Origin: a virus
IMG/VR virus record: IMGVR_UViG_3300025128_000397
Span: 1 to 21,764 of that record
Strand: one strand, 5' to 3'
Length of the DNA: 21,764 nucleotides
The translations under genes were made by a program, and so were the position numbers. This document shows positions 165-21,489 of the stretch, one piece after another. The first letter of the stretch is position 1; every line of letters begins with the position of its first letter. The notes beneath the pieces were generated by a model. The model was not told where the DNA came from, made no database searches, and saw only the letters and a program-made list of their open reading frames with translations.

Positions 165-3100
165 TTATAAAGTCATAATTGATTGAAAGTTAAACGCGTT
201 ATTTCCATTATATAACGTCTCACTTCCTTGTCTAAATCCTGAAGTACCGCTTGCAGTTGATGCACAGACAGCATTGTATTCAACTGAAGAGCCACTAGAA
301 TAACCAGAAGTATCTATAGTGTAACCGCTTTGGTAAACGTTCTGAGCGTTGTTATAGTCTCCTGCAATAACTATCGCTATATATATATTTGTATTGTAAC
401 CTGGATTATAAGTTGTTAAATTTGAGTTGAAGTTATTAGTATCCCAAGTTATTGTTAATGTATTAGTTGAAGCGTCATGACTAGCAATTGGAACTAAAGC
501 GTCAATAATAGGACATTCTAAAGTTGTTGCTTGTTTAGCAGGCATTAAAGGCGCGTTTTTCTTCGTGCTTCCATCATTAGCATAACACTGTTTACCAATT
601 TTTATATCGTATTCAGTATTTTCAGTTAAATCATCAAAAACGATATAACCTTCGTTACCTGTTGGATTCGTCAAAAACCAATCACCAGGAGTATTACCAT
701 TAGTATTACCGCCCCAACCAGATATAGTGTTAAACGCGTTTTCACCACTTAACGTTGTTAATTGGTTTTGGTATGATTGACCAGAATTATTTTCTCTATA
801 TCTACCTCTTACGTTAAACCAAGCTTCAGTTCCACCAGTATTATAAGGATCTGCTTGAGTAAACTGAGCAACACTAACAGCTATTTTTGTAAATGTTTTT
901 GAAATCACATCCGCTGTGTTACTATCAATTGATACGCTAGCGGTTTCTAAACAAGTTAAACAAGTACCGTCGTCTATTGTTGTACCTGGATAAGCACCAT
1001 CATTAACAAAGTCCCAACAAGGTGCAGTAGAACTAGAATCATTTGTTGAATTACAACCGTAGTTAAACGCATCGGTATTACTCCAACAACCGGTTTGATC
1101 ATCGTAAACACAACAATCTCCATCACCTGAACTAGCTATTCCGTATGTCCAGAAAGTGTTACCAGTAAAAGAAATATCACTAGTTACTACATCAGTAATA
1201 TTTGCAGTACAAGGTTGTGTTACTGTTCCAGCAGGATTACTTGTTGCAAATCCTCCCGCATCAAGTGATAACGACGGTTGAAGATAATTTGAAGCAAGTG
1301 TATTCATACAACCTGCCCACTCACACTGAGTATTATCAGCATCAGTAACATATTTATTATAATTAAGAGCCCCAACAATATTACAACCTACAATCTCTGG
1401 TGTAGTAAATGTTACTTCTGCGGGAGTAGCAGGGTCAGACGAAGAACTACCTACACCACACCAATTCCAAACTATAACCTTATATTGTTTACCTGGTCTT
1501 AAGAAACCTGGAGTGTTATCAGGATGATCACCGCAACGTATACCTACTATACCAGTATTACCATCAGGACCTAAGTTCCAAGTTTGCATACCAAAATGAC
1601 CAGATGGATCTTGGTTATAATTAAAACTATTATCTTGGCAAAAAGCAAATGTCGCTGTTGTTGGAGGTTGAGTAGTACCTAAACCATCATCACAATCAGC
1701 CCATGGTCCTTGTCCTGTAAGATCTCCAAAATGATTAATTATAGGTCTATCTTCATGATTCTTAAAAATTCCAAAAGTACCTACTGTACTACCAGGATTA
1801 ACGCCGCTAATTTGAGCCGTGTTATTGTTAGTGCTGTATAACGGATCTTCCATACCACTAGGTACTGTTAACCAAACTTGATTATCATCATCATATTCTC
1901 GTAACTCTAAACTTATACCAGCAATAGGTATAGGTCCTGGTCCACTGATATTAAAACCTGTATTACAACCACAATTACCACTAATAGCAAAGCCATTATA
2001 ACTAGCGTCATCCCAATTTATAACTGCGTTAGTAGGTGTTATATTTGTTACGGTTAAATTAGATACGGAAGGACAAGATGTTATACATGAACCATCATCC
2101 TGCGTGGCATTTGGATCAAAATTGAATGCTGATAAATTCATACAACCTAAAATATGAGCTATACAGCTTCCATCATCAGTATTAGCATTTGGATCAAAGT
2201 TCTGTGTATTTGGATCAGTACATCCAAATATTGGAGCAATACAAGAACCATCATCTATGTTTGCTGTCGAGTCATAATTAACTGCCACAGGATCTGTACA
2301 TCCATACACAAAAATATTTTGTCCAAAATCAATTGAAGGATCGTAGTTGTCTAATAATGTTTCTTGTGCACTTCTAACTGGACCACCATTAGGTGATGTA
2401 CCGCTTGTGTAGTTATCAGCGTTACAGTAAGTTATAACTCTAAATCTAAGGTACGTAAGAGTTGACGTCCAAAACGTAGTTGTTCCATTATCTGGTTGTA
2501 AAGCTACATCATGGAAAGTGTGTGTAAACGTTTGGCCGTTTGCTGGTACAGCGCCACTGTTGTCAAGAATTACCTCTTGAGAACCATTACTATTACCCCA
2601 GTTAGTTTGCATACCTGATCCAAACGAAGCGTAAGCCATTTGTAGTTTAAACTCATTAAACATATTTACGTTCCAAGGTAATTCTGGCGCTTGGAAAGAA
2701 ACAGTTACATCATGCATACCTACAGTTCCACTTGTTGCTAAAACAACGTTATCTACAGTAAGATTAATTGGTTGTTCACAGATTTGACAACCACAAGTAT
2801 TAAAAGGACCTACGGTTTGGCTACCTTGTGTAGGTACGCTGTTATACCAAGTGCTATTAGGGTTATTAAAAGTTGAAGCAGCATTTAGATCTTGTGAAAA
2901 CTCACCAGAGTTCCAAATATTATTATAGAAATTATTACCAATAAGAGTTTGATTAACAGAACAACCTATATAGTAACAAGAACCATCATCATTTATGCAA
3001 GAGCTACAATAATTACAAGCTGCTGGATCCATACATCCATCGGTTGGTGGTGTAATACAGCTACCATCGTCAAAAGTAGGACAAGGAGGAAGAATAGCGT

Positions 3101-6100
3101 TTTGATAATTGTAAGGTATAGTGTTATCACAACCTATACCAGGAGTTAAGTAATTAGAAGCTCCAACATCAGTACAACCACCGTAAGTACAAGAACCATC
3201 ATCACTGTTTACATCTAATTGAAGATTACCAGTTGGCGCTGAATAGTTAAAGGCTGGAGTTAAATTATCAAGACAACCATAAATATAATCATAACAACTA
3301 CCATCGTCTATATTAGCGTTTGAATCATAATTAAATGCTAGTGGATCTGTACAACCTGCTTGTGCGGTAATACAACTACCATCATCATTAGTAACATAAG
3401 GATATATATTATTTGTATTGTTTGGACCACCGTAGTTTGTTGCGTTTATGTTATTAAGACAACCATTATATTGACATGAACCATCATCAGTATTTGCACT
3501 TGAATTATAACTTAAATTATCAGCGTTTGGATCTGTACACCCAAGTAACACAGGAATACAAGGATCAGTAGTATCACTTGCAGAAACTTGATTTATAGTT
3601 GCAAGTGGATCATAGTTAAACTGACCAAAAGTTGTACAGCCATAAACTATAGAAGTACCTATAAAATTAGTATATCCAAGACCTTGAACAGCAAAACTAC
3701 TTGTATCAAATTTATTATAACTATTTGTTAAGTGACCATATTGATCTGTTGTTACAGCTTTACCTCTTATATAATTAAACCATTTACCTTCTTTTTCTAT
3801 AAACTCAATTATACTACCTTCTTGTTGGTCTGTTTTAATACTTTCTACATACCAACCGTTTTTAGGATTTAGATTATAGTATTGTGAGTCGCTATACAAC
3901 ACACCTGTTGCAGTTCCTAACAACAAAGGATCTTCTTCTATTAATAGTTTTACTCTAGACTGACTACCTTCATAATTCAAAGTATTAAAAGACTTAACAC
4001 TATGAGGAAAATCATTTAATAAAACAGTAACGCTTGATGGGTGTGGTGTAGTAGCACCATAAAAAGTATTTCTTGGCCAAGGGTTTAAAACAGTACCTTC
4101 TTCATGGTGTCTCCATAAATTACCATTTAAAAACGTATAATAATCATTAGCACAGCTAATAGCTAGTTCTGGAATATAAGATTTAAAACTAACCCAACCT
4201 TTTACGTTTTCTTTATAAGAAACAGTTGTTGTATTATTTTCATTTAGACTATAAGAATTTACAATTAAATCATTATCTTGCATTAATGTTAAATTGTATT
4301 CGTCTTTTCTGTCATCATAACTACCTATTAACTTAGTAGTTACTTTTAAATTATCTCTAAACCAATCTTTCATACCTGCATCAGATATAGCTGTTAAACC
4401 ATCTTTTGATAATCTTACAACAGAACCTCTTACTTTATCAGTAAAATAAACTCTATAAGCTTCCGATGCAAATGATTCTGGATTTTTAGATATACCATAT
4501 TCACCTACAAAAGGTATTGTTTGTCCTAAAACATTAGCCGTTGCGGTTAACTGCGGGTTTCCATCAGCGTTGAATACAGCATCTTTATTTGATAATATTT
4601 TTAGAACTTTATCTTCACAAAGAACTATCAAATCAGTATTTCTAGTATGTAGTTTTTGGATACTACCATATGATGGATTTATATCTTTAGTGATTTTTTC
4701 TGCTTGTATAAATTGGTTTAGATTATTTACACCACTAACAGAATTGTATATACCAGAATATATTAATCCATATTTTCTATTTTCTCTTTTATATTGTTCA
4801 GGTAAAGTTGTAGAAGCTTTTACACCATTTAAAATATAAGGTAAATTAAAATTATCTCTAACTCTATTAGATTCAACACCATTACCAAATGAATAACAGT
4901 TGTGCCAATTTAAATCATAAGAAGTATTGTATAAATTTCTTTTTAATTTTATAGTTCTAGTAAGACCATCGAATGGTGGCGGTTCTATAAATTGATCTAC
5001 AACAGCTTCTGCTTTACTACCATCTGGTCTTTCTATAATTATAGTTTCATTTACGTTTAAAGGTGGAACTCCACCAGGACAAGGTCCAACATAACAAACA
5101 TCTGCAGATAAAACTATTGTATCAAAATATGATGCTACAATATAAGTCCCTGGAACAGGATTGTCTGTATGCGCGCTAGATACTTTAGATAATTCAGGAG
5201 CGAATATTTTTATAGTTTGGTTATCTAAAGTTATAGGGTTGTAACCACTTATTTCGTGATAAATATTTAAATCAATAGATTCTTTTGGTTCCGTTTCCCA
5301 TATAGCTGGTTTTTTAGATTTTAATTTTTTAATACCAGGAGCAACATCAATAAATTGAATAGTATAACCAACAGCATCAACTCCTTCGTTAGTATTTCCA
5401 AAACCATCAGCATTATTGAAAAAATTTATATTTTTTGCTGAATTTGGACTTAATCTATTCATTGTGTATTGAGCAAAATATAAAGCATCAGAGGCTGATA
5501 TGCCACTTAAATCTATATTAACATCAGTTTGCGCGTCATAAGCTTTACATTTTATAGAAAAATCACTTGTACTATTTTCAATTATTTCAGATACAGTAGC
5601 TAACTGAGTTTGCGTAAGTGTTGTAGAAGCGTACTGGTATAAAACCATACCAACGGTTAATCTGTTACCGCTACTATCTTCTAAACTACTAACATTAATA
5701 GTGTAATTATTAGTAGAAGCTATTGATGCTGATAATTGTATTGTAACACCTCCAGATATTGCAGAACCATAACCTGATACAGGATTCCAACCTATAGTTT
5801 TGTTTAATGTTATTTTATAGTTTCTAGTAAAATTAGAAGGTCTCCAATGTGTACTAGTAGCATATTTAGTCCAATGATCAGGAGAAAACACGCTAATATC
5901 AACATCATTACCATCTCTAATCATATGTGGTCCAGCGTCCCAACCAGGTAAATTAGGATGTATACCACTAGCTGTAAAATGATTCCATGGTAAATTATCT
6001 CCAGAAGCAGCTACACTTTGATCAAGTGCATTTTCTTGTTGCGTGGTATCCATATTCTCACCATCTGTAAGATCATCAATCCTTACTCTATAGTAATTAT

Positions 6101-9100
6101 CTACATTAGTTATAGTATATATTTCTTCAGAAGGATCTTCTTTAAATCTAAATTTAGATCCAGCAACTAATCTTTTAGCAAAATCACCATTATCACCATC
6201 GTAAACAGAGTTACCATCGTCAATATCAAACATCGTGTCTAAATTATCCCAAGCGTAATCAACATCACTACCCTGTATACCACCAAAAGATAATTCAAGT
6301 CTGTTACCTGATAATCCCCAAGAAGCTTGTTGCGTAGGGTCTAAGTTTTCTTCAGGATTTGGAACACCATCCCCACCTTCATAAGGATATGTACCAGCAA
6401 TATGAGCGTCAGCATCTATAAACCAAACGTCAACGAACTTTTGATTTGTAGTATCTTCACCTGTTATAAGATTTCTTTCACTTCTAATACGATGATTAAT
6501 ACCATGTGGTAAGTTTCCTTCTTTTTTATCTGCTCTTTGAACATTTATACCTCTAAAAAACGCGTCAAATGGAGCCCATTTAAAATGAGATATTCCCTGC
6601 CAACCACTAACATTACCTAGGAAATGAGCAACTTCTCCTGTAGCAACTCTATAATCAAACCAACTTGAAGCGCTAGATGCATCACTATGTATACTACCAT
6701 GAGATGAAACTACATTTTCTAAACCGGTACTATTATCAGGTGTAAGTCCACTAGTATTTGAAAATACATATCTATGTTGATCTTGGGTTGCGGCTACTGC
6801 TGGTACTCTCCATAAGTATATCTTTTTTTCAGGACCAATAGATAAATTGGTTGTTATTGATGGTTGTTGGCTAGATATATTTTCAACAAAAGTATCATCT
6901 AAAAATATTTTTACAAAAAACTTACCATCAAATTCAGGTAAATTTTCAACTGTATATTTATAAAAATTAACAAAGGTTTCATCAAGTATTTTAGTTTGTG
7001 CGCCACCACTCACGTCGTCTGTAAATATATTTATATCCTCTCCTATTTTTTCTTCTAAAGTAATATAAATATAATCATCATCAGAAGCAGCAGAACCTAT
7101 TCTATATCTTTTACTTCTTACAGTTTCGTCTGCGTTTGCTAGTTCAAAATAAATAGCATCTCTTCCTATATTGTTATATATTTCATCTAATTTAGCTATA
7201 CTAGAAGTAGAATAAATATCTGCATAATTAATAGCAAACTTACTTTTGTTTAAAAGAGGTACTCTAGTATCATCACTAAATATAGATGTTGCATCAAAAT
7301 GTTGTCTAGAAGATATTAACGTTTGTTTTGTTTTAACAAAATCCGGTGCTTCGTTTTTTATATCTAATACTTTATATCTAGCTTCTTGAGCAACAGCAGT
7401 ATCAGATTCTATACCTTTTTTCATTATGATATAACTGTCTATATCTAATTTGTTTCTATCCGTAGAAGGGAAAGATAACCATATACCACCATCTTCAGCA
7501 TCGTACCAACGGTCCATAGCTAAATTATAATACTCACTAGATGATTCTTTTATGAAAAACTTATAGTACTTCATATTTGTAGGTTGATTCTGCCCTTTAA
7601 AACCAACTTTTAATCTATTACCACTAGCAGATTTATCTTTACCTAATTTAAAAGTAGAATTTAAACTAGAAATAACTGGCGTTTCTCTACCATGTTCATC
7701 TATAAATACAACACCTAATTGATATTCTCTTAACGATTTAATTGATCTAACTCCTGAGCCATCACTACTCTGCCTTGATGATATAATATGTTTAAAGTCA
7801 GGATAATATTTTAAACTATTAATAGTTGTTAGATCAAAATTTTGTATATAGTTACCGTATACAACTCTATTACCTGTTATTTCTTGTGCTTTTGCACTTA
7901 AAGGAACGTTGTCCCAAGGTCTTAGTATTTGATTTTCAGGTATAGCTGCTTTTATATTACTAGATTTTATTTCGTATGAGTTTGCATACCAAGCGTTGAG
8001 TGGTTCACCTATAATTGTTTCATCGTCTGGTTTTACAGTATCAATAATATAAACATTTGGAGAACCATCTTCTTTATAAAGTATTTCAACAGCATCTACA
8101 TCTTCATATTCCCCACCAACAGTATAAAACTGTGGAATAAAATTACTTAAAACAATAGAGTTTAATCTATTTGTCATTGCAGTATTATAACCTTTTTCAG
8201 CATTGTAACTAAAAGAACCTGGTTTAAATGCTACTTCAGAATATGGTGATATAGCTGAATATTCACCATCTGTATATTTATATCTAATAGCAAATCTAGG
8301 AAATTTAAATTCAAATAGCTTTTCAGATTCATCAAATAAATCTACTACATAAGTAAGTGGATCAGAAAAATTATCTGCACCAGCAAAAGGTATATCACCA
8401 CCTATTTCTGTTACTAAAATTTCTACGTGTGCACTACCTGGACCAGACGTAGGCCAGTTTTGTGCTTCTGGAGCAGCTTGTTGATCACTGGTATTAGATA
8501 CAAAAGAGTTATATGTACCAGAAGCGTTTGCACCTCCATTGTCCCATGCTGTTATTTGGCCTTTTATAGTAAAAGCAGAAGTGTCTAAAGGTATTGACGG
8601 TTGCTCGTTGTTAATATTATTAAATTCTTTTAAAATAAGTTTACTACCAATTTCCCATTGTAAAGTAAAATCACTAGCTATATTACCAGATGTATCTATA
8701 GCTTGAGGTATTTGTATTCTAAAAGTACTACCAACTTGTATATTAGAAAAGTCATATAAATCTGATTGTGCAAAATTAGATATGTTAGGGTTGTTTCCAG
8801 GAGTTGATATTGTGTTAATTAAACCACTATAAAATAAACCTGGTTCTCTAGATGTTTTATACTCTACAGACGGAGAATATTTAGGAGATTTTCTAATAAC
8901 AGTTATATGATCTTCTCTAATAGGAACTTGAGTACCTACTCCATCTATAGTATCTGTTATTAATAAAGTATGATCGTTACCACTTGAATCTGTACCTTGT
9001 AAACTACGGTTAATGTTTATTTTTTTAGGTTCATTAAAACCGTCTGTATAAAAAAGTAAATCATCAATTATATTTATACCTGTAATTAATTTTTCACTAT

Positions 9101-10931
9101 TAAAATTAAGAGCTCTTTTTCTAAAAAAGTTTAGATATTGACTAGACGAAAGATCTAACTCTGTAGATAAAAGTAAACTGTTAGGAGCAAAAGTTCCTGA
9201 AGGTATTTTAAACTTAACTTTAAAAGTACCTGCCATACTAGCAATAACATCAACACCTGTATCACAATTTATTATAGCAAAAGTATTTATTGTTTGTGGA
9301 TTATCTACTAAATTACCAAAAACTGGATCGAAATAACTATTTACATCTATACAACCACCATTACCATTACCTAAATCTGGAAAGTTAGCGTTAGGTTCTA
9401 TTTCTATTTGAATACCAGTTTGAGTATCATCTGGGGCAGTACCACCGTAGATACCATCAACCCCAGCATCAAATTGTATTTGGTATATATCATTTAACCA
9501 ACTAGAGTTCTGTGGTATTGTTATTTTATTATTAAAAATAGGTGGCCCAATGGTTTGTCTTTTAACTGAAAGCGCACGACCATTACCTGTTGATGGATAA
9601 TCTATCATACCAGTAAATATATTACCGCTAGTCTGAGGTGCGCCAGGGTAATTACTTGGTAAAGAAGGATGTGTAGATGTGTTTATACAAGGAGAACAAA
9701 AAGCGTTAAACTTTTTAAACTGATTTACATTTGGGTTAGTGTTGTTAACGTTAGGCACAGTACCACTACCCTGTGATGTAGGTAGATTTCCAGTTGTAAG
9801 ACTGTCTAGCCCATCTACTTGATCGGTAAATACTAAAGCTCTGTAAAATTGATGTTGGGTTGTAAAACCAGTAGGATCTTTTAATAATACTAAATAATTA
9901 TTATGTAAAGTAGCAGTGCCGTTAGGGAACATACTTGTAGTAAATAAGGCTGGCATTTGTCCACCTAATTCAAAAAGCTCCCATAAAGCGGTTGATCCTT
10001 CTATCCACGGATTTTGAGATCTAAGAGTTTCCCACGTACTAGGTTGCGATCCTCCTGCACCAACACAACCGTTTGCCTCTATTGAATTGATTGTAGCTAC
10101 AATAGCATTGTCGTTTGGTAAAAGAGTGTTAGAAATTAAACAGTCTGGTATTAAAACTAAATTCTCAAACCACTCTGTGTTATTGACTATGTTTACTCCT
10201 GTAGCCATCGTAGCGTCTAACCCAGCTGTTGTCTGCTGTGGATTTGCAGCGTTTGGATTATGTCCAATAACTTCAAAACCAAGCTCAGCTTGAGTAAAGT
10301 TAGGTGAAAAACTAAATTCAAGATCTTGTATTCCGCCAATATTTTGTACAATGGCAGATTCTGTATATTGACCAGCGTTATTCACGCCTTGAACACTCAT
10401 ACCTACATTTACAAAATCAATAAAACTAGCGTCTACAATTAATATATCGCTAGGTAAATTATTTTCAACAGTATCATTTGGTATTACAACACCGTATTTG
10501 TCAACAAAAACAGGTTCGCAACCTGCATATGTATGACGCATAATCATATCTTTTCTATGTAAAGGAGTAAAGTGTGTGAAAGGATCGTAGTTTCCACCGT
10601 GTGTAGTTATTAAGGTACTTATATAATCAAGTATATAGTTTGTGTCAAAATCAGGACCACAAACTAACCAGTATAAAGAATCATTTTTTTCATCAGATAT
10701 AGAGCCTACGGTTTTAGATCCAATTAATATAGGGTTTGGATCGCCATTAGCATTAGGATATGTACAACCTTCAATATTACCTAATATATTCTGAACAGTA
10801 CCAACATTAGAATCATCTGATGTTGACACTTCTATATTCATAGCGTCTCTATATTCTCCGTTTGGAACAAGTCTTTCATCAAGATCTTTGTTCATCTTAC
10901 CCCCGGTAAAATGATGCTTAATTTCTGGCAT
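165..10931 (-). CDS. Giant tail nozzle-like protein fused to a cysteine-rich repeat/FN3-like adhesin tail (3588 aa)
   Basis: The likely role is the distal tail nozzle or hub of a short-tailed phage, with a C-terminal host-binding extension. The N-terminus (residues 5-30) has the signature HHFTGGKMNKDLDER followed by VPNGEYRDA and NIEV, which I associate with podoviral nozzle proteins (T7 gp12, P22 gp10 type) and their large relatives in marine and crAss-like phages. Further family-like blocks are DDLLFYTDGFNEPKK (about 620), GNRVVYGNY (about 1020), SLREYQLGVVF (about 1070), AMDRWYDAEDGG (about 1140), GSYDDRKDEYNLTL (about 2205) and EFIEKEGKWFNYIRG (about 2390). Residues 2430-3588 are different: three GC/DDGSC repeat blocks with FN3-like segments between them. 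By my count this part holds about 50 cysteines, against 14 in the first 2430 residues. No signal peptide or membrane segment is visible. It starts 4 bases after the preceding neck gene. T7 gp12 has about 794 residues, so this protein is greatly enlarged. The nozzle assignment is probable; the adhesin role is inference. Confidence 0.85.
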   Translation of the reverse strand: MPEIKHHFTGGKMNKDLDERLVPNGEYRDAMNIEVSTSDDSNVGTVQNILGNIEGCTYPNANGDPNPILIGSKTVGSISDEKNDSLYWLVCGPDFDTNYILDYISTLITTHGGNYDPFTHFTPLHRKDMIMRHTYAGCEPVFVDKYGVVIPNDTVENNLPSDILIVDASFIDFVNVGMSVQGVNNAGQYTESAIVQNIGGIQDLEFSFSPNFTQAELGFEVIGHNPNAANPQQTTAGLDATMATGVNIVNNTEWFENLVLIPDCLISNTLLPNDNAIVATINSIEANGCVGAGGSQPSTWETLRSQNPWIEGSTALWELFELGGQMPALFTTSMFPNGTATLHNNYLVLLKDPTGFTTQHQFYRALVFTDQVDGLDSLTTGNLPTSQGSGTVPNVNNTNPNVNQFKKFNAFCSPCINTSTHPSLPSNYPGAPQTSGNIFTGMIDYPSTGNGRALSVKRQTIGPPIFNNKITIPQNSSWLNDIYQIQFDAGVDGIYGGTAPDDTQTGIQIEIEPNANFPDLGNGNGGCIDVNSYFDPVFGNLVDNPQTINTFAIINCDTGVDVIASMAGTFKVKFKIPSGTFAPNSLLLSTELDLSSSQYLNFFRKRALNFNSEKLITGINIIDDLLFYTDGFNEPKKININRSLQGTDSSGNDHTLLITDTIDGVGTQVPIREDHITVIRKSPKYSPSVEYKTSREPGLFYSGLINTISTPGNNPNISNFAQSDLYDFSNIQVGSTFRIQIPQAIDTSGNIASDFTLQWEIGSKLILKEFNNINNEQPSIPLDTSAFTIKGQITAWDNGGANASGTYNSFVSNTSDQQAAPEAQNWPTSGPGSAHVEILVTEIGGDIPFAGADNFSDPLTYVVDLFDESEKLFEFKFPRFAIRYKYTDGEYSAISPYSEVAFKPGSFSYNAEKGYNTAMTNRLNSIVLSNFIPQFYTVGGEYEDVDAVEILYKEDGSPNVYIIDTVKPDDETIIGEPLNAWYANSYEIKSSNIKAAIPENQILRPWDNVPLSAKAQEITGNRVVYGNYIQNFDLTTINSLKYYPDFKHIISSRQSSDGSGVRSIKSLREYQLGVVFIDEHGRETPVISSLNSTFKLGKDKSASGNRLKVGFKGQNQPTNMKYYKFFIKESSSEYYNLAMDRWYDAEDGGIWLSFPSTDRNKLDIDSYIIMKKGIESDTAVAQEARYKVLDIKNEAPDFVKTKQTLISSRQHFDATSIFSDDTRVPLLNKSKFAINYADIYSTSSIAKLDEIYNNIGRDAIYFELANADETVRSKRYRIGSAASDDDYIYITLEEKIGEDINIFTDDVSGGAQTKILDETFVNFYKYTVENLPEFDGKFFVKIFLDDTFVENISSQQPSITTNLSIGPEKKIYLWRVPAVAATQDQHRYVFSNTSGLTPDNSTGLENVVSSHGSIHSDASSASSWFDYRVATGEVAHFLGNVSGWQGISHFKWAPFDAFFRGINVQRADKKEGNLPHGINHRIRSERNLITGEDTTNQKFVDVWFIDADAHIAGTYPYEGGDGVPNPEENLDPTQQASWGLSGNRLELSFGGIQGSDVDYAWDNLDTMFDIDDGNSVYDGDNGDFAKRLVAGSKFRFKEDPSEEIYTITNVDNYYRVRIDDLTDGENMDTTQQENALDQSVAASGDNLPWNHFTASGIHPNLPGWDAGPHMIRDGNDVDISVFSPDHWTKYATSTHWRPSNFTRNYKITLNKTIGWNPVSGYGSAISGGVTIQLSASIASTNNYTINVSSLEDSSGNRLTVGMVLYQYASTTLTQTQLATVSEIIENSTSDFSIKCKAYDAQTDVNIDLSGISASDALYFAQYTMNRLSPNSAKNINFFNNADGFGNTNEGVDAVGYTIQFIDVAPGIKKLKSKKPAIWETEPKESIDLNIYHEISGYNPITLDNQTIKIFAPELSKVSSAHTDNPVPGTYIVASYFDTIVLSADVCYVGPCPGGVPPLNVNETIIIERPDGSKAEAVVDQFIEPPPFDGLTRTIKLKRNLYNTSYDLNWHNCYSFGNGVESNRVRDNFNLPYILNGVKASTTLPEQYKRENRKYGLIYSGIYNSVSGVNNLNQFIQAEKITKDINPSYGSIQKLHTRNTDLIVLCEDKVLKILSNKDAVFNADGNPQLTATANVLGQTIPFVGEYGISKNPESFASEAYRVYFTDKVRGSVVRLSKDGLTAISDAGMKDWFRDNLKVTTKLIGSYDDRKDEYNLTLMQDNDLIVNSYSLNENNTTTVSYKENVKGWVSFKSYIPELAISCANDYYTFLNGNLWRHHEEGTVLNPWPRNTFYGATTPHPSSVTVLLNDFPHSVKSFNTLNYEGSQSRVKLLIEEDPLLLGTATGVLYSDSQYYNLNPKNGWYVESIKTDQQEGSIIEFIEKEGKWFNYIRGKAVTTDQYGHLTNSYNKFDTSSFAVQGLGYTNFIGTSIVYGCTTFGQFNYDPLATINQVSASDTTDPCIPVLLGCTDPNADNLSYNSSANTDDGSCQYNGCLNNINATNYGGPNNTNNIYPYVTNDDGSCITAQAGCTDPLAFNYDSNANIDDGSCYDYIYGCLDNLTPAFNYSAPTGNLQLDVNSDDGSCTYGGCTDVGASNYLTPGIGCDNTIPYNYQNAILPPCPTFDDGSCITPPTDGCMDPAACNYCSSCINDDGSCYYIGCSVNQTLIGNNFYNNIWNSGEFSQDLNAASTFNNPNSTWYNSVPTQGSQTVGPFNTCGCQICEQPINLTVDNVVLATSGTVGMHDVTVSFQAPELPWNVNMFNEFKLQMAYASFGSGMQTNWGNSNGSQEVILDNSGAVPANGQTFTHTFHDVALQPDNGTTTFWTSTLTYLRFRVITYCNADNYTSGTSPNGGPVRSAQETLLDNYDPSIDFGQNIFVYGCTDPVAVNYDSTANIDDGSCIAPIFGCTDPNTQNFDPNANTDDGSCIAHILGCMNLSAFNFDPNATQDDGSCITSCPSVSNLTVTNITPTNAVINWDDASYNGFAISGNCGCNTGFNISGPGPIPIAGISLELREYDDDNQVWLTVPSGMEDPLYSTNNNTAQISGVNPGSTVGTFGIFKNHEDRPIINHFGDLTGQGPWADCDDGLGTTQPPTTATFAFCQDNSFNYNQDPSGHFGMQTWNLGPDGNTGIVGIRCGDHPDNTPGFLRPGKQYKVIVWNWCGVGSSSSDPATPAEVTFTTPEIVGCNIVGALNYNKYVTDADNTQCEWAGCMNTLASNYLQPSLSLDAGGFATSNPAGTVTQPCTANITDVVTSDISFTGNTFWTYGIASSGDGDCCVYDDQTGCWSNTDAFNYGCNSTNDSSSTAPCWDFVNDGAYPGTTIDDGTCLTCLETASVSIDSNTADVISKTFTKIAVSVAQFTQADPYNTGGTEAWFNVRGRYRENNSGQSYQNQLTTLSGENAFNTISGWGGNTNGNTPGDWFLTNPTGNEGYIVFDDLTENTEYDIKIGKQCYANDGSTKKNAPLMPAKQATTLECPIIDALVPIASHDASTNTLTITWDTNNFNSNLTTYNPGYNTNIYIAIVIAGDYNNAQNVYQSGYTIDTSGYSSGSSVEYNAVCASTASGTSGFRQGSETLYNGNNAFNFQSIMTL
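951..1388 (-). repeat. Degenerate GC/DDG repeat block C (3 units) in the giant tail protein
   Basis: Residues 3182-3327 hold three diverged units: GCNIVGALNYNKYV ending in TQCEW, GCMNTLASNYLQP with a long insertion ending in GDCCVYDDQ, and GCWSNTDAFNYGC ending in DDGTCLTC. The GC start and N-Y core are kept, but the ends are altered and extra cysteines appear. The block lies between FN3-like segments 2950-3181 and 3328-3588. Confidence 0.7.
2085..2306 (-). repeat. GC-x(n)-DDGSC repeat block B (3 near-perfect units) in the giant tail protein
   Basis: Residues 2876-2949 contain three head-to-tail units of about 24-25 residues: GCTDPVAVNYDSTAN, GCTDPNTQNFDPNAN and GCMNLSAFNFDPNAT, each followed by a DDGSCI end. 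This is the most regular copy of the repeat and defines its consensus. The block lies between two FN3-like segments (residues 2658-2875 and 2950-3181). The even spacing suggests a stiff stalk or spaced small modules. Confidence 0.9.
2961..3644 (-). repeat. GC-x(n)-DDGSC repeat block A (7 units) in the giant tail protein
   Basis: Residues 2430-2657 hold seven consecutive units. Each opens with GC followed by T/L/M and D/N, has an N-Y/F-D/N core such as AFNYDSNAN, and most close with NDDGSC or IDDGSC. The tightest unit is about 25 residues (75 bases). Others carry insertions, for example units 3, 5 and 6, and the first unit has lost the DDGSC end. The paired cysteines suggest a disulfide per unit and the acidic DDG suggests a metal site; both are inference. 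At DNA level the plus strand shows recurring gaaccatcatc-type words. This repeat style is familiar from secreted proteins of marine Bacteroidota. Confidence 0.88.
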
Positions 10932-10935
10932 TTAA

Positions 10936-12318
10936 TTAATGTTTAATTTGTTTTGATTTACCTCTTAAAACTTGAGTTATTTCTTCTAATTTAATATTAG
11001 ATAATCTTAATTTTGCTTTTCTTGTTTCAGCAAATCTTTCTTTTTTGTATCTTCTTACAATATATTCTGGTATACCAGCTTTTGTAGATAATATAGCGTA
11101 TAATATCCATTTATACATGGCTTCTTCAGCAAACTTATGCACTTGCATTTCTTCATCTGTACCAACAGTATCACTTAAATAGTCTAAAACTATTGTTTGC
11201 CCTGACATATTTGAACTAAAATGTATTTTACCAACTTTACAGTCTATATAAAAAGATCCATTTGTTTGCGCATGTGAAGGTTCTAAACCATATCTTTCGC
11301 CTTCATAAGGCCAATAAACATCATCTTCATAATCATCATTATTATTTTCAGATGGATTATTTGACTTGTAATTACTCCATGTTAAAGAATCTTCTTCATC
11401 ACCAACTCTAACTAATGATATATTATCTATAGTTACATTTCCAGCTGTTGAACTAGTTTGACTAAAAGTTATTGATCTACTACTTAGCTGTGCTTCTGTA
11501 ACACCTGTAGATAAATCTATTTCATGTGAATAAGTACCGTTTGCAGAAACAGATGTTGAATCTTTAAAGTCTCCATTTTCATCTATTATTCTCCAAGCAT
11601 AAGTACCGGAACTATAACCACTCAAAGTATATGTTATAGTATATTTTTCACCACTATGTATAGGTATGTTTTTAACATAAAATTCTTGATCTTCAGGAAG
11701 ATTATAACCGATTATAGCGTTATTATCAAAAAACCAACCAATTGAATTTGTTATTGGATCTGAAACGGTACCAGAAGCTGTATTTGTAGATTGTGCGGCT
11801 CCTCCAAGTAATGCGTTTAACACTATGTTTCCAACTCCAGCTTGTAGATTACTATTAAAACTATTAGATAATAAATTTCCAGATTTTATTAAATCACCAT
11901 TAGCATCAAATAAAAAATCTCCATCATCACTTTGCTGATATTTAGTAGGATTAGAAGTTTCTTTAGCTGGATATAAAATATGCTTAATACCTGAGCTATC
12001 AACACTACTAATTTTAGTATAGTTTACATAATCCTGAGGTAAAGGCATTGTTAAAGAATTAGGAACTTTATACTCTTGGCTTTTACAAGATTTAAAAGTA
12101 TCAAATGAAAACTCTTGTAAAGCTCTCATAGCATGAAACTGCACGTCTGTTATACTTACTTTAGATATTATTTTACCTTCACCAACATAGGCTATCATAA
12201 ACTGTTGTATTAATCTATTTAACGGAGTAAATTGATAGTTACCTAAATTACTTTCGTTTTCATAGTATTGTTGTTTTGTTATTGGTGAACCACTTTGAGT
12301 GTATAATAATCCTGACAT
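10936..12318 (-). CDS. Putative neck/ring (head-tail connector) protein with an inserted jelly-roll domain (460 aa)
   Basis: It probably forms part of the neck between portal and nozzle. This is based on position directly upstream of the nozzle-like gene, 4 bases after the previous gene, and on the general look of marine and crAss-like connector proteins. Residues 1-140 form a compact region with FTPLNRLIQQFMIAYVGEGK and PLPQDYVNYTKIS. Residues about 190-306 read as an inserted beta-sandwich domain (see separate entry). Residues 320-385 include YWPYEGERYGLEP, and residues 385-460 are helical and basic (YIVRRYKKERFAETRKAK), suited to packing in a ring or against DNA. There is no catalytic motif. 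The start follows an A-rich leader without a Shine-Dalgarno sequence. The CDS is certain; the neck role is inferred. A tail adaptor or other collar component is the main alternative. Confidence 0.75.
   Translation of the reverse strand: MSGLLYTQSGSPITKQQYYENESNLGNYQFTPLNRLIQQFMIAYVGEGKIISKVSITDVQFHAMRALQEFSFDTFKSCKSQEYKVPNSLTMPLPQDYVNYTKISSVDSSGIKHILYPAKETSNPTKYQQSDDGDFLFDANGDLIKSGNLLSNSFNSNLQAGVGNIVLNALLGGAAQSTNTASGTVSDPITNSIGWFFDNNAIIGYNLPEDQEFYVKNIPIHSGEKYTITYTLSGYSSGTYAWRIIDENGDFKDSTSVSANGTYSHEIDLSTGVTEAQLSSRSITFSQTSSTAGNVTIDNISLVRVGDEEDSLTWSNYKSNNPSENNNDDYEDDVYWPYEGERYGLEPSHAQTNGSFYIDCKVGKIHFSSNMSGQTIVLDYLSDTVGTDEEMQVHKFAEEAMYKWILYAILSTKAGIPEYIVRRYKKERFAETRKAKLRLSNIKLEEITQVLRGKSKQIKH
11401..11751 (-). 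other. Carbohydrate-binding-module-like jelly-roll insertion within the neck protein
   Basis: Residues 190-306 of the 460-residue protein show the pattern of CBM4/9-like lectin folds seen in many phage virion proteins: GEKYTITYTLSGYSSGTY near the start, a SANGTYSHEIDLS strand pair, ITFSQTSS, and the typical close NVTIDNISLVRV. It is flanked by a Ser/Thr/Asn/Gly-rich linker (about 150-190) and a Ser/Asn/Asp-rich linker (about 307-330), as expected of an inserted surface domain. The fold is judged from sequence pattern only; the ligand is unknown. Confidence 0.6.
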
Positions 12319-16855: not shown

Positions 16856-19273
16856 TTACTTAGGGTCAAACGCACCTAAATCAAATCCGCCACCTAGTAT
16901 ATCATTACCTGCAGACTCAAAGTTTTTAGGTGGTTTTCCACTATTTCTTTGTTCAATCATCTCACTTTGTTGAGAGGCTTGAATTTTTGTTCTTTCATCT
17001 TTTCTATCTTCTTTCTGTTTTTCTCTTTCTTTCATACCGCTAACCTCTAAATTTTTTAACTGCATACTCATTTCAAACTCTAACTGCATAAGTTGTTTTT
17101 TATATTCAACTTCTTGCATCATTTTTTCAGCTTCTAATTTAGCTTTAACTTGTTCTAACTGTAAATCGCTTTGTGTTAACGCTTGGTTCTTTTGAACTTC
17201 TATTTGAGCAGCTGCTTGCGCAGCTTGAGTATTAGATTGAGATTGAGCCTGTATATTTTCTAATTGTAACTTTCTATCTCTATCTTGTTTCTTTTTTCTT
17301 CTTATTTTCAACATTTGATTAGCTAGCTTTACGTTCTTGATCTCTCTAAGATCAATAGCATCTTCTAGTTCTATATTCTTTTGTTGAAGAGCCATTTGTA
17401 TGTTATTTTCTAACATAGCTTTTTCTTCTTCATCAGGCATTAAATCTATAAATATTCCAAAATCGTACAAATGTAATTCTGACATCTCTTCCAATGTAGC
17501 AACGTTATGAGCTCCGATGGCTTGTATGAAAGCATTTTTTGTTGGTGAGTATTGAATTATATCAGATATTCTAAGAGATAAACACTCTGCTGTTTCTGCT
17601 GTTAAAAATAAACCAGCTTGCAAGATATGTCTTGTGGCTGTGTTACTATTAGCAGCTGCTAGCTTCTGAACTCCAACTAAAGCATTTTTATCTGGCATAC
17701 TACCATCTCTAGCCTCGTTTAAACCGGTTACATCTCTTATCATTTGTAGATAATAATTATACGTACTAATTAAAGCTTGCATTTTATTACCACCTGATCC
17801 AGATGTTATTTCTTTAATAGGTACTTTACCAGGATTTATATCACCATCTTGAGTAAATGATCTACCAATAACAGAACCAGTTTGGAAGAACATGTTTAGT
17901 GCTTCTTGTGGATTATAATTAGTTCCGTTACCTAAATCAACCTCTGCTAATCCATCTGCATCTAAATAAACACCGTCCGGAACCATTCTTGACATTACTT
18001 GCTGTAGTTTTAGATGTGTTAATTGAATCATATCAGCAAAACCAGTTATTCTTTTTACTAAACTTTCTATTTTTCCATTATACATTCTAGGTGCTACAAT
18101 AGAGTAATTCATTTTAACTTTAGTAAAATCACTTTTAGGACGCATCATATTTTTAGACATTTCCCACTTAAGAAGTTTATCAGTACCTAAAATTATAGCT
18201 CCTTCATACAAACACTCTATTGATCTTAGTAATCTTGAATAACCACCTTCCATATTTTCCGGTGGGTTAAACGAATCATCTTTAGGTATTACTTTATCAG
18301 CTCCAGTTCCAGTTTCTTTTACTTTATAAACTTCATTCATATAGGTTTTATAATTAAAATATAAAACTTGTATTTTATTATTATCTTCTTTATCAGAACT
18401 ATATTTATTATGATTATTATTTCTATGATAAGATTTATTTTTCATTATATCCTCAAGATCGCTTTCTGTTAAATGAGGAAACTGTTTAGCTAATTCATTT
18501 ACTGGAATAGATTTAACCTCACCAACATAATATATGTCTTCAAAATAAGGAGAATCAGTATAAGAATAAACTAAGTTAGCTGGATCAACATAGTCTATAG
18601 TAACACCTTCAGAAGTATTAAAATTATTTTTTACAGCTCCAATACCAAGAACCGTTAAATCATAATAAAATCTTTTCTTTATAAGTTCATAATTATTACC
18701 TTCCATTAAAACACTTAACGCTTGTTCTTCTGCTAGCTCTACAGCTTGCTTGTAGCTAAGCTGCATGTGTAATCCTAATTCTTCTTCTGTTTCAGGTAGT
18801 ATCTCAGGATTATTTTCAGTTAAATTAATACCGAAAGCTTGTTTAGCGAAAGCATCTAATTCTTTAGATCTCATATCTGCTAGAATAGATTCCATGTATT
18901 GTGTTCTTTTAGCTACTCCATATTGATCTTGTGAAAATGCTTTTATATCATATGTTCTTTCAGCTATACCATTAACAACTATATCAACAAATTTAGGAAT
19001 AATTGGAACAGGTGTCCAGTCTAAATTTAAATAGGACAAATCACCGTTTATAGATAACTCATCCTTATACTTTTGTATCGACTGTTCGCCTCTAGCATAT
19101 AATCTTAGGTTATGAAAGTTATTCATATTGTTTCTATACCTATTATTATTATAATCATTATTAAACCACTCAGTCTCTATAGCTTTAGCTACTTTTAAAC
19201 CATAATCATAACTAAGCTTCTCAGCATCACTTACGGTTTGACTAGGAAAATAGCTGTTACTAGAATATGCCAT
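16856..19273 (-). CDS. Portal protein (805 aa)
   Basis: The portal is the dodecameric ring at one capsid vertex through which DNA enters and leaves; the terminase docks on it. The gene follows the large terminase directly, 2 bases after its stop. Residues about 45-110 contain NFHNLRLYARGEQ and WTPVPIIPKFVDIVVNGIAE, the usual opening of a portal clip/wing region. The middle has VDPANLVYSYTDSPYFEDIYYVGEV and VKRITGFADMIQLTHLKLQQVM, plus GLNEARDGSMPDKNALVG. Residues about 655-775 form a long Gln/Lys/Glu-rich coiled coil (for example LEQVKAKLEAEKMMQEVEYK), matching an extended crown or barrel helix inside the head. The length fits the roughly 800 residues I recall for crAss-like portals, well above many siphovirus portals. 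The start follows an A/T-rich leader. Confidence 0.9.
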   Translation of the reverse strand: MAYSSNSYFPSQTVSDAEKLSYDYGLKVAKAIETEWFNNDYNNNRYRNNMNNFHNLRLYARGEQSIQKYKDELSINGDLSYLNLDWTPVPIIPKFVDIVVNGIAERTYDIKAFSQDQYGVAKRTQYMESILADMRSKELDAFAKQAFGINLTENNPEILPETEEELGLHMQLSYKQAVELAEEQALSVLMEGNNYELIKKRFYYDLTVLGIGAVKNNFNTSEGVTIDYVDPANLVYSYTDSPYFEDIYYVGEVKSIPVNELAKQFPHLTESDLEDIMKNKSYHRNNNHNKYSSDKEDNNKIQVLYFNYKTYMNEVYKVKETGTGADKVIPKDDSFNPPENMEGGYSRLLRSIECLYEGAIILGTDKLLKWEMSKNMMRPKSDFTKVKMNYSIVAPRMYNGKIESLVKRITGFADMIQLTHLKLQQVMSRMVPDGVYLDADGLAEVDLGNGTNYNPQEALNMFFQTGSVIGRSFTQDGDINPGKVPIKEITSGSGGNKMQALISTYNYYLQMIRDVTGLNEARDGSMPDKNALVGVQKLAAANSNTATRHILQAGLFLTAETAECLSLRISDIIQYSPTKNAFIQAIGAHNVATLEEMSELHLYDFGIFIDLMPDEEEKAMLENNIQMALQQKNIELEDAIDLREIKNVKLANQMLKIRRKKKQDRDRKLQLENIQAQSQSNTQAAQAAAQIEVQKNQALTQSDLQLEQVKAKLEAEKMMQEVEYKKQLMQLEFEMSMQLKNLEVSGMKEREKQKEDRKDERTKIQASQQSEMIEQRNSGKPPKNFESAGNDILGGGFDLGAFDPK

Positions 19274-19275
19274 AT

Positions 19276-21489
19276 TTATTTTATTATTTGTGAATTAAAT
19301 CCAGTATTACTATACTTGGAAATGTTTATATTTAGTTTTGATTTCTCAACTTTTGCGTTTGGTCTATATAAATGTCTATTATTTGCCATTATAGCTAAAC
19401 CAGAACTTATAGACGCATCAAATTTAGTTCTTTTATTTATATCAAATTTTGCCCAATCATTTAATAAAGCGTTAAAATATAAATCACCAAAGCTACCATC
19501 TTGCTTCATACCAACATGATCTTGTATATACATTTCAATAGCTGCCGCGTGAGCTTGTTTAATATCTTCACTTGAGTTTGGTATTCCACCTACCTCTTTT
19601 TCTGCTACTGATAGTTTATTCCAGACTTTATCTGGCCTATTCATACTAAAACCTCTATAACCTCTTCTTCTTAAATAGTATAATAACCTAGGTTTATTAT
19701 TTTCTGCTAATATAGGCATTCCATAAAAAACTAATGCCATCAACACGTCTTCAAAAAATATTTCAGCCGTAGGTGGTCTTGATAAGTACTCTAAAAAGAA
19801 GCTATTCGCAGGAGCGTCCTCCATACTAAACCTGGTTAAGCCGTGTAATGCTCCTTTAGATCCTTCTCCATCTACGGTTCCTGATATATCATACGAGTCA
19901 CAACCAAATGCTCCCATGTGTTCATTACCAGGATATTTAATACCATTTTTAAGTACCACTCTATTTTGTAATTGCTGAGGTGGAACCCAGCTAACTTTAA
20001 ACCTGCCTTTTGGATCTGGATAAAAAATTACTTGTGAATCTTTAACACCGTTAACCCATTGAAAATTACCAGTTGTAATACCTAGCGTTCTAGACATTTC
20101 TTCGTTATAATCTATTTGTTCGTATATTTTTACAAGATTAAATATACTGTTTTTTGTTTCGTCTCTAAAAGCGTGCTCTTCAGTTCTTGGAAACTGACGA
20201 TAAAATTCATTTAAAGCATCTTGATCGTCTTTCAAACCATCAGCTTCATTTTGCCAGCTATCTATTACACCTATATCTATTAATTCGCCGTCAGGTGCGA
20301 AGACATCGACATCAGGAGTATTAAAGACTGGAACTCCATACTCGTCAATAAATCCTTCGTAGTTCCATTCCATTGGGATAAACAAAGAGTAGAGACCAGA
20401 CTTAGTCTGACCATTTCTATTTCTTCTCGTGACATCTGACGCTCTGTATAGTTTTTTGAAATTTTCACCACCTTTATCTAATGCGTTTGAAGTAGAGCCC
20501 ATCATACATTTACCAATAATTCTACTACCTAATCGTAAACATGTTTTTGTAACTCTCCAGTTGTTTAAAATATTATCGGGTCTCTCCCATTTGCCACTTT
20601 CATCATGTACTAGTAAATTTAGTTTTTCACCATCATAACTATTATCTCCAGTATTTTTCCAATCAATAGTTGTGTCTAATCCTTCTAATTCTTCTAACTT
20701 TTCATTAGAAGTTATTTTTTTACGAGTAAATTTACTTGCTGGTACTCTATACGCTAACTCTGTCTTAGGACGATCCATACCATCTTGAATAGGTTTAAAA
20801 AAGAAAGGATAGTTTATGCTTATCGGAACTACTTTATCAGTAAACATCTTTTTAGCATCTGCACCTGTTTTAGATAAGATCCCATATCTACTATCACTTG
20901 CAAGAGTAGCTAAATTAACTGTTTCAGCAGATGACATGAACGAAAAGCCTGATCTTCTGTTCTTTAAGTAACACATCCCATAACATCTTTTATCAGCTTT
21001 ACAAGCTTCCCAAAATATATAGAACAATCTATTTGCTTCTCTAAAATCAGGCGCTCCAACATCTATTTTACTCCATTGAAGATACATATAATGTGTTCCC
21101 GCTATATACGTTGGCTTACCATTATTCATAAACCAGAAGCCTTCATCTCTTCTTTTAAACTCCTCGTCTATATAATCAAACCATTGTTCTTTTGATTCTT
21201 CTGGATAGCTCCTCCAATCAAATATATTTTTAAGACGTGATAATTCTTTTGGTTGTTCTATTCTTGACCACTTATCCTTTTGCAATTTATGTACTTGCAC
21301 GGGCATAGATGGTAAAGCAATTTTAAGATTTTGAATTTCATATATTTCTCCTATTTTACCTGTTTTAGATATAACAACCACATCATGCTCTTTGTTATAT
21401 CCATATTTCCATTTTTTACCACGATTCATTCTAGTAATCGTAGTTTTTTTAATGGGTTCTATTATATTAACTAAACTTTGATCGTACAT
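19276..21489 (-). CDS. terL: Terminase large subunit, packaging ATPase and nuclease (737 aa)
   Basis: It drives ATP-dependent DNA packaging into the procapsid and cuts the genome. An N-terminal block with NRGKKWKYGYNKEHDVVVIS and the segments GTHYMYLQWSKIDVGAP and EACKADKRCYGMCYLKN closely resemble crAss-like terminases as I remember them. The P-loop position reads NRRSGFSF (177-184), without the usual GK[ST]. Walker B is LNLLVHDE with D296 and E297. A coupling-type motif, MMGSTSNA, follows. The RNase H-like nuclease shows AFGCDSYD (D531), FFEDVL (E580, D581) and a late acidic position near NDWAKFD (D678). The ATG overlaps the stop of the preceding gene by one base (TAATG), so the two are translationally coupled. 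Confidence 0.94.
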   Translation of the reverse strand: MYDQSLVNIIEPIKKTTITRMNRGKKWKYGYNKEHDVVVISKTGKIGEIYEIQNLKIALPSMPVQVHKLQKDKWSRIEQPKELSRLKNIFDWRSYPEESKEQWFDYIDEEFKRRDEGFWFMNNGKPTYIAGTHYMYLQWSKIDVGAPDFREANRLFYIFWEACKADKRCYGMCYLKNRRSGFSFMSSAETVNLATLASDSRYGILSKTGADAKKMFTDKVVPISINYPFFFKPIQDGMDRPKTELAYRVPASKFTRKKITSNEKLEELEGLDTTIDWKNTGDNSYDGEKLNLLVHDESGKWERPDNILNNWRVTKTCLRLGSRIIGKCMMGSTSNALDKGGENFKKLYRASDVTRRNRNGQTKSGLYSLFIPMEWNYEGFIDEYGVPVFNTPDVDVFAPDGELIDIGVIDSWQNEADGLKDDQDALNEFYRQFPRTEEHAFRDETKNSIFNLVKIYEQIDYNEEMSRTLGITTGNFQWVNGVKDSQVIFYPDPKGRFKVSWVPPQQLQNRVVLKNGIKYPGNEHMGAFGCDSYDISGTVDGEGSKGALHGLTRFSMEDAPANSFFLEYLSRPPTAEIFFEDVLMALVFYGMPILAENNKPRLLYYLRRRGYRGFSMNRPDKVWNKLSVAEKEVGGIPNSSEDIKQAHAAAIEMYIQDHVGMKQDGSFGDLYFNALLNDWAKFDINKRTKFDASISSGLAIMANNRHLYRPNAKVEKSKLNINISKYSNTGFNSQIIK

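Follow-up and report, generated by a model that had tools for sequence, protein, structure and literature searches.

The minus strand of an isolated viral contig of 21,764 bases (IMGVR_UViG_3300025128_000397, positions 1 to 21,764; hereafter the window) encodes a chain in which a large tail muzzle continues, within one reading frame, into a C-terminal arm of cysteine-rich repeats and FN3-like segments. Comparative sequence analysis establishes the muzzle identity, the sharp boundary between body and arm, the recurrence of the fusion among relatives, the equivalence in position between the arm and a domain here called S, and the faster change and recombination of the arm. It is rather probable that this muzzle, as a hexamer, shows six covalently attached arms made of cysteine modules and FN3-like domains that touch the host, and that exchange of arms shifts adsorption while the body is kept. 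The features concerned, all on the minus strand, are the following (window coordinates).

165..10931 (-), whole gene, muzzle body plus C-terminal arm; 3588 aa, ATG start (ORF listing)
3657..10931 (-), muzzle body, residues 1-2425; phrog_14478, tblastn to phi38:1, elemo and other muzzles, alignment
9042..10694 (-), expansion between conserved residues 80 and 630; ~480 aa more than phi38:1 (alignment position mapping)
3762..4076 (-), PF25729 crAss_MUZ_C, residues 2286-2390; 28.4 bits, cut-off 27
168..3656 (-), C-terminal arm, residues 2426-3588 (1163 aa); absent from named phage relatives, with homologous extensions in IMG/VR loci
2976..3641 (-), cysteine repeat block 1, residues 2431-2652, ~7 units; first units with pLDDT 85-90 in the model
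2424..2765 (-), FN3-like beta-sandwich segment, residues ~2723-2836; low-confidence model
2085..2303 (-), cysteine repeat block 2, residues 2877-2949, 3 units (repeat count)
1392..2075 (-), FN3-like domain with a long insertion, residues ~2953-3180; VIA-align Z 9.9, Foldseek, Pfam fn3 below cut-off
960..1385 (-), cysteine repeat block 3, degenerate units, residues 3183-3324 (repeat count)
168..959 (-), C-terminal part of the arm, residues 3325-3588; fold unassigned, low pLDDT
3..152 (-), start of a separate S gene; 50 codons in the window, running off its end (S family alignment)
10936..12318 (-), upstream virion structural gene, 460 aa; phrog_13977
16856..21489 (-), portal and terminase large subunit genes, in one cluster with the muzzle gene; phrog_6547, phrog_6681

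The original prediction of a single frame is borne out by the ORF listing of the window, in which the 3588 codons run uninterrupted from their ATG. The minus strand carries a tailed-phage structural cluster that comprises terminase large subunit, portal, scaffold-like and major capsid-type genes, three more structural genes and the muzzle gene, and the order TerL-portal-scaffold-MCP-...-muzzle is common to the window, phi38:1, elemo and MW202828. Cysteines are unevenly spread along the chain, with 15 in residues 1-2430 vs 51 in residues 2431-3588; the motif EFIEKEGKWFNYIRG occupies residues ~2377-2391, and the cysteine-rich segment comes next.

Residues 1 to about 2430 had been called a nozzle, and homology and synteny agree that the protein is of nozzle type, while refining the label: by homology, residues 1-2425 are a crassvirus-type tail muzzle with a putative T7-nozzle-like core, and internal inserts make them roughly twice as long as the phi38:1 body. 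The virion structural family phrog_14478 matches the body with E=8.4e-125, and crAss_MUZ_C, found in 16 of 17 aligned muzzles, lies just above its cut-off in the window and reaches 65-68 bits in the phi38:1 and elemo muzzles. The tblastn search retrieved 87 phage records; apart from one metagenomic genome, they belong to phages of Flavobacterium, Cellulophaga, Tenacibaculum and Maribacter. Among named viruses, Pervagoviridae and Elemovirus come nearest, and neither is assigned to Crassvirales in the NCBI taxonomy. Muzzles measure 1324 aa in phi38:1, 1470 aa in elemo and 1551 aa in MW202828. Besides the expansion listed above, alignment position mapping places further expansions relative to phi38:1 at residues 683-883 (~+170) and 1395-1879 (~+260). 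The product of the upstream 460-aa gene is likewise longer than its ~285-aa counterparts in phi38:1 and elemo and seems insert-bearing too.

Mean pLDDT of the two structure models is 55 and 42. The AlphaFold model of residues 1985-2560 (pLDDT 55) covers a C-terminal half propeller and is poor, the omission of the N-terminal blades being the probable cause; its top VIA matches in the PDB are nonetheless C6 phage tail nozzles, at Z 6.1-6.9, under 8. A beta-propeller core may be shared with T7 gp12 and the podovirus nozzles GP4, Pa223, VP1 and SU10, a likeness of Z 6-7 drawn from a poor model. Among viral models, the same segment matches the Crassvirus muzzle C-terminal domain protein of Virus NIOZ-UU157 (1.4e-21) and crAss-like 'stabilization' proteins, and PDB sequence searches with the full chain and three family profiles found no muzzle. 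In T7 and P22 the fibres or spikes are separate proteins, and no such nozzle arm is known from either phage. In crAss001 the muzzle acts as a hexameric gatekeeper and comprises a T7-nozzle-like ring-joining domain, a propeller, two Ig-like domains and a crass fold (PMC10172136). The window protein resembles this muzzle, gp44, in crAss_MUZ_C, in its putative propeller-type core and, by homology, in its position at the tail tip; it differs in its 1163-aa C-terminal arm, since none is described for gp44 (PMC10172136).

The arm is built on the repeat GCTDPxAxNYDxxAxxDDGSC, of which ~13 units, including degenerate ones, lie in three blocks separated by beta-sandwich segments. Together with the 51 cysteines after residue 2430, these units account for the cysteine-rich repeats that the original prediction had described, and its FN3-like segments hold for at least one domain, that of residues 2953-3180. 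Although the arm model is of low confidence overall, this domain (model residues 534-761) aligns to FN3 domains over 92 residues at 2.5 A with a Z of 9.9 (VIA-align), Foldseek assigns it to FN3 with probability 1.00, and Pfam fn3 scores 19.9 bits in the window arm, below the cut-off of 25, and exceeds that cut-off in the arm of a related locus, L049. NCBIfam yielded no match to the arm, and a single record of the phage collection matches it, a marine single-cell virus, over ~58 residues; no cultured arm-bearing relative occurs in that collection. The arm is absent from the named relatives phi38:1 and elemo.

Related muzzle loci (numbered L017, L048 and so on, L001 being MW202828) place the joint between body and arm in a wider context. 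The 76 classified muzzles, window included, comprise 39 with a repeat-bearing arm, 18 with none, 14 with a fused S and five others, in proportions that differ from natural ones, as the 80 loci of the IMG/VR scan were retrieved by similarity to the window. Across these loci, muzzle ORFs range from 1650 to 3765 aa. The extension past the body end measures 0 to 1291 aa and in many loci contains 28-58 cysteines; in no IMG/VR muzzle was a repeat unit seen within the body itself. The extensions of 39/76 begin at one shared point, near which 18/76 muzzles end; close relatives that stop around residue 2430 thus exist. A tree of the 76 rows, built on the conserved C-terminal body, requires 10 changes of the arm label, of which strongly supported branches force at least five; the S-fused muzzles of L013 and L054 nest in an otherwise arm-bearing clade. 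L064 (7720-10779) has a 1020-aa muzzle extension that contains few cysteines and matches BACON below threshold; it is another arm type, positioned as the cysteine arms are. Sequence comparison thus shows that the fused arm is not the sole arrangement: in other relatives the arm is split off or missing, S is fused, or the body bears a different type of extension.

That an assembly or sequencing artefact near base 3650 joined two genes in the window is very improbable. What lends the idea some substance is L048, whose two parts lie in different overlapping frames, so that in a single contig an error of one base could be enough to fuse or separate them. There the muzzle ends after ...WFNYIRGKAWQQ, and an overlapping ORF in another frame starts VATINSFGKDSFDNADSSFQGLG, runs into cysteine repeats and carries Lcl_C above its cut-off; it could be the product of a one-base frameshift in a fused gene, whether natural or introduced by sequencing. 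A second arm ORF in L048 (849 aa) starts MAISNFGIGGFDNADSSFQGLG, and both open with an SFQGLG segment, the same as at the body end; because this second copy has its own ATG, the arm of L048 exists as a stand-alone gene. Against an artefact in the window, the extension occurs at a shared place in 39 classified muzzles, and the two closest arm-bearing relatives, L017 (3765 aa) and L069, are homologous to the window through most of the arm. A misassembly is therefore contradicted by dozens of independent IMG/VR contigs that extend from the same point.

The position of the arm becomes clear from two further elements, S and D. The S domain (~120 aa) ends in GYYAxVxFxNxSxxKAELFSVGSEVxESSK in the family alignment, and it occurs in three main layouts relative to D: body and S fused, then D, the fusion also seen in elemo and phi38:1; body, then D, then S; and body plus arm, then S, then D. 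The window encodes S on its own, from base 152 on the minus strand. The arm thus stands where S would otherwise end the body. That S is the usual C-terminal end of the muzzle agrees with PHROG 18548, which matches both the body end of the window and S. The ORF of 400-567 aa that follows arm-less muzzles was considered as an unfused arm and rejected, as it is the cysteine-poor D gene; in arm-bearing phages D mostly lies after S. As a separate observation, the usually cysteine-poor D gene is cysteine-rich in L044 (15807 onward) and L035, with 26 and 17 cysteines, and that of L044 holds three units of the arm-repeat type. Other D genes (e.g., L025, L072, L013) have low-complexity N-termini followed by a conserved APPGFHYMPDGTLMSDAEH motif.

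Compared with the C-terminal 420 residues of the body, the arm is less alike in 13/13 pairs, as in the window and L017 (38% identity in the arm vs 75% in the C-terminal body). Compared with the whole body it is less alike in 12/13 pairs, the exception being L011/L019, whose arms are more alike; whole bodies have themselves diverged, with 44-51% in many pairs, and so the arm on average changes only moderately faster than they do. The clearest case is L049 and L050, from different metagenome records, which show three differences in the first 16.1 kb, muzzle body included, then ~120 differences in the arm along with a repeat-length indel, then variable islands in the downstream genes, with near identity resuming after 23.4 kb. 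The high dS of the arm (0.096 vs 0.0015 in the body) indicates that it changed by import of a divergent allele through recombination and not by accumulated point change. The dN/dS of the arm (0.43) is below 1 and thus gives no sign of positive selection over the whole arm; as the downstream genes also differ, the arm is not the sole variable site. These alignments indicate that arms recombine while the body is kept, which agrees with the earlier suggestion that host range could change by repeat shuffling without touching assembly, except that the clearest change involves imported divergent alleles with a repeat-length indel and not only shuffling.

How such an arm might act can be outlined from the known muzzle. 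As the gatekeeper at the end of the short tail, the muzzle, if hexameric as in crAss001, would display six covalent arms, which probably leave its side and not its tip, because the propeller and C-terminal domain of crAss001 are proximal to the crass-fold tip. The cysteine modules may form stiff disulphide-bonded spacers, FN3-like or other arm domains may contact the surface of a marine Flavobacteriales host, and arm exchange would change adsorption while the tail-sealing body stays. Six covalent arms binding the host are the best reading of the data, in which we infer the hexamer, the display and the intactness of the chain; the named relatives manage without an arm, and this counts against the arm as a host-contact device. 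If the arm binds the host, recognition and gate opening would be coupled in one polypeptide, and how crassvirus muzzles sense the cell surface would become directly testable, with the natural series of fused, split, absent and S-fused forms and the L049/L050 pair as ready comparisons. A wider reading, nearly as likely as not, is that in a large group of marine crAss-like phages the gatekeeper doubles as an adhesin platform, at whose C-terminus cysteine arms, other extensions or S are fused, split, duplicated or exchanged by recombination, S being separate when an arm replaces it.

The arm might instead serve as general surface decoration or as a spacer, anchoring the phage to polysaccharide, particles or biofilm, with specific receptor binding left to other proteins such as crass-fold inserts, the D protein or fibres. 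This is the less likely role, though a serious one: in cell proteins the repeat follows lipoboxes in the manner of a spacer, near-identical phages differ in D and other downstream genes as well, and Ig-like/BACON adhesins of gut phages attach to epithelium (PMC13370021). The covalent seat on the gatekeeper and the replacement of alleles suit host contact, yet are compatible with tethering. It is improbable that the arm goes undisplayed, either because it is cleaved off or because it only helps the large muzzle to fold or assemble; many relatives do lack an arm, but cysteine-rich and FN3-like content is typical of displayed segments, and an unsystematic look identified no cleavage site or chaperone-like domain.

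The repeat itself has cellular counterparts. Its DNA pattern matches at least 118 stretches of cellular genomes, mostly from aquatic Flavobacteriales, Saprospiraceae, Chitinophagales and Neomarinimicrobiota and a few archaea; a scan of cellular genome contigs with the whole arm found no relative, whereas the repeat pattern did match. Several of the cellular repeat ORFs have, by eye, a signal-peptide-like start or a lipobox directly before a unit; the position right behind a lipobox suggests that the repeat is a spacer and not a ligand-binding module. These matches point to the repeat as a module of secreted proteins in the likely host group, and this group is likely aquatic or marine Flavobacteriales. 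Being common to Flavobacteriales surface proteins, the repeat also hints at the hosts of uncultured marine phages. In the open literature searched, no paper on the DDGSC repeat turned up.

Muzzles, repeat-bearing tail proteins and modular adhesins are already known. The closest named homologues, gp97 of Cellulophaga phage phi38:1 and gp22 of Flavobacterium phage elemo, share 32-33% identity and the gene neighbourhood with the window muzzle, but lack the arm and carry S fused at the C-terminus. The crAss-BACON tandem repeat proteins are tail-associated and evolve by transfer and duplication (PMC6949934); like the arm, they consist of repeat domains common to Bacteroidota surface proteins, but the domain is another one and occurs in ORFs near tail genes, not in muzzle fusions, the weak BACON match in the L064 extension aside. 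In the open literature searched, which excluded subscription papers and preprints, no description was found of a muzzle fused to a repeat-built adhesin arm that is replaced or split among relatives.

Several loci depart from these layouts in other ways. The muzzle of L018, L052, L083 and L015 consists of two adjacent ORFs, divided near window residue 1940/1999, immediately ahead of the conserved C-terminal region. L079-L082, L074 and L063 are without a cysteine arm and carry inserts of ~700-1300 aa inside the C-terminal region, which in L080-L082 lie between residues 2206 and 2322, an alternative insertion site. In MW202828, a gene annotated as a glycosidase is followed by a 267-aa ORF (5634-6437) that looks like the C-terminal end of the muzzle plus S and stands apart from the 1551-aa muzzle.
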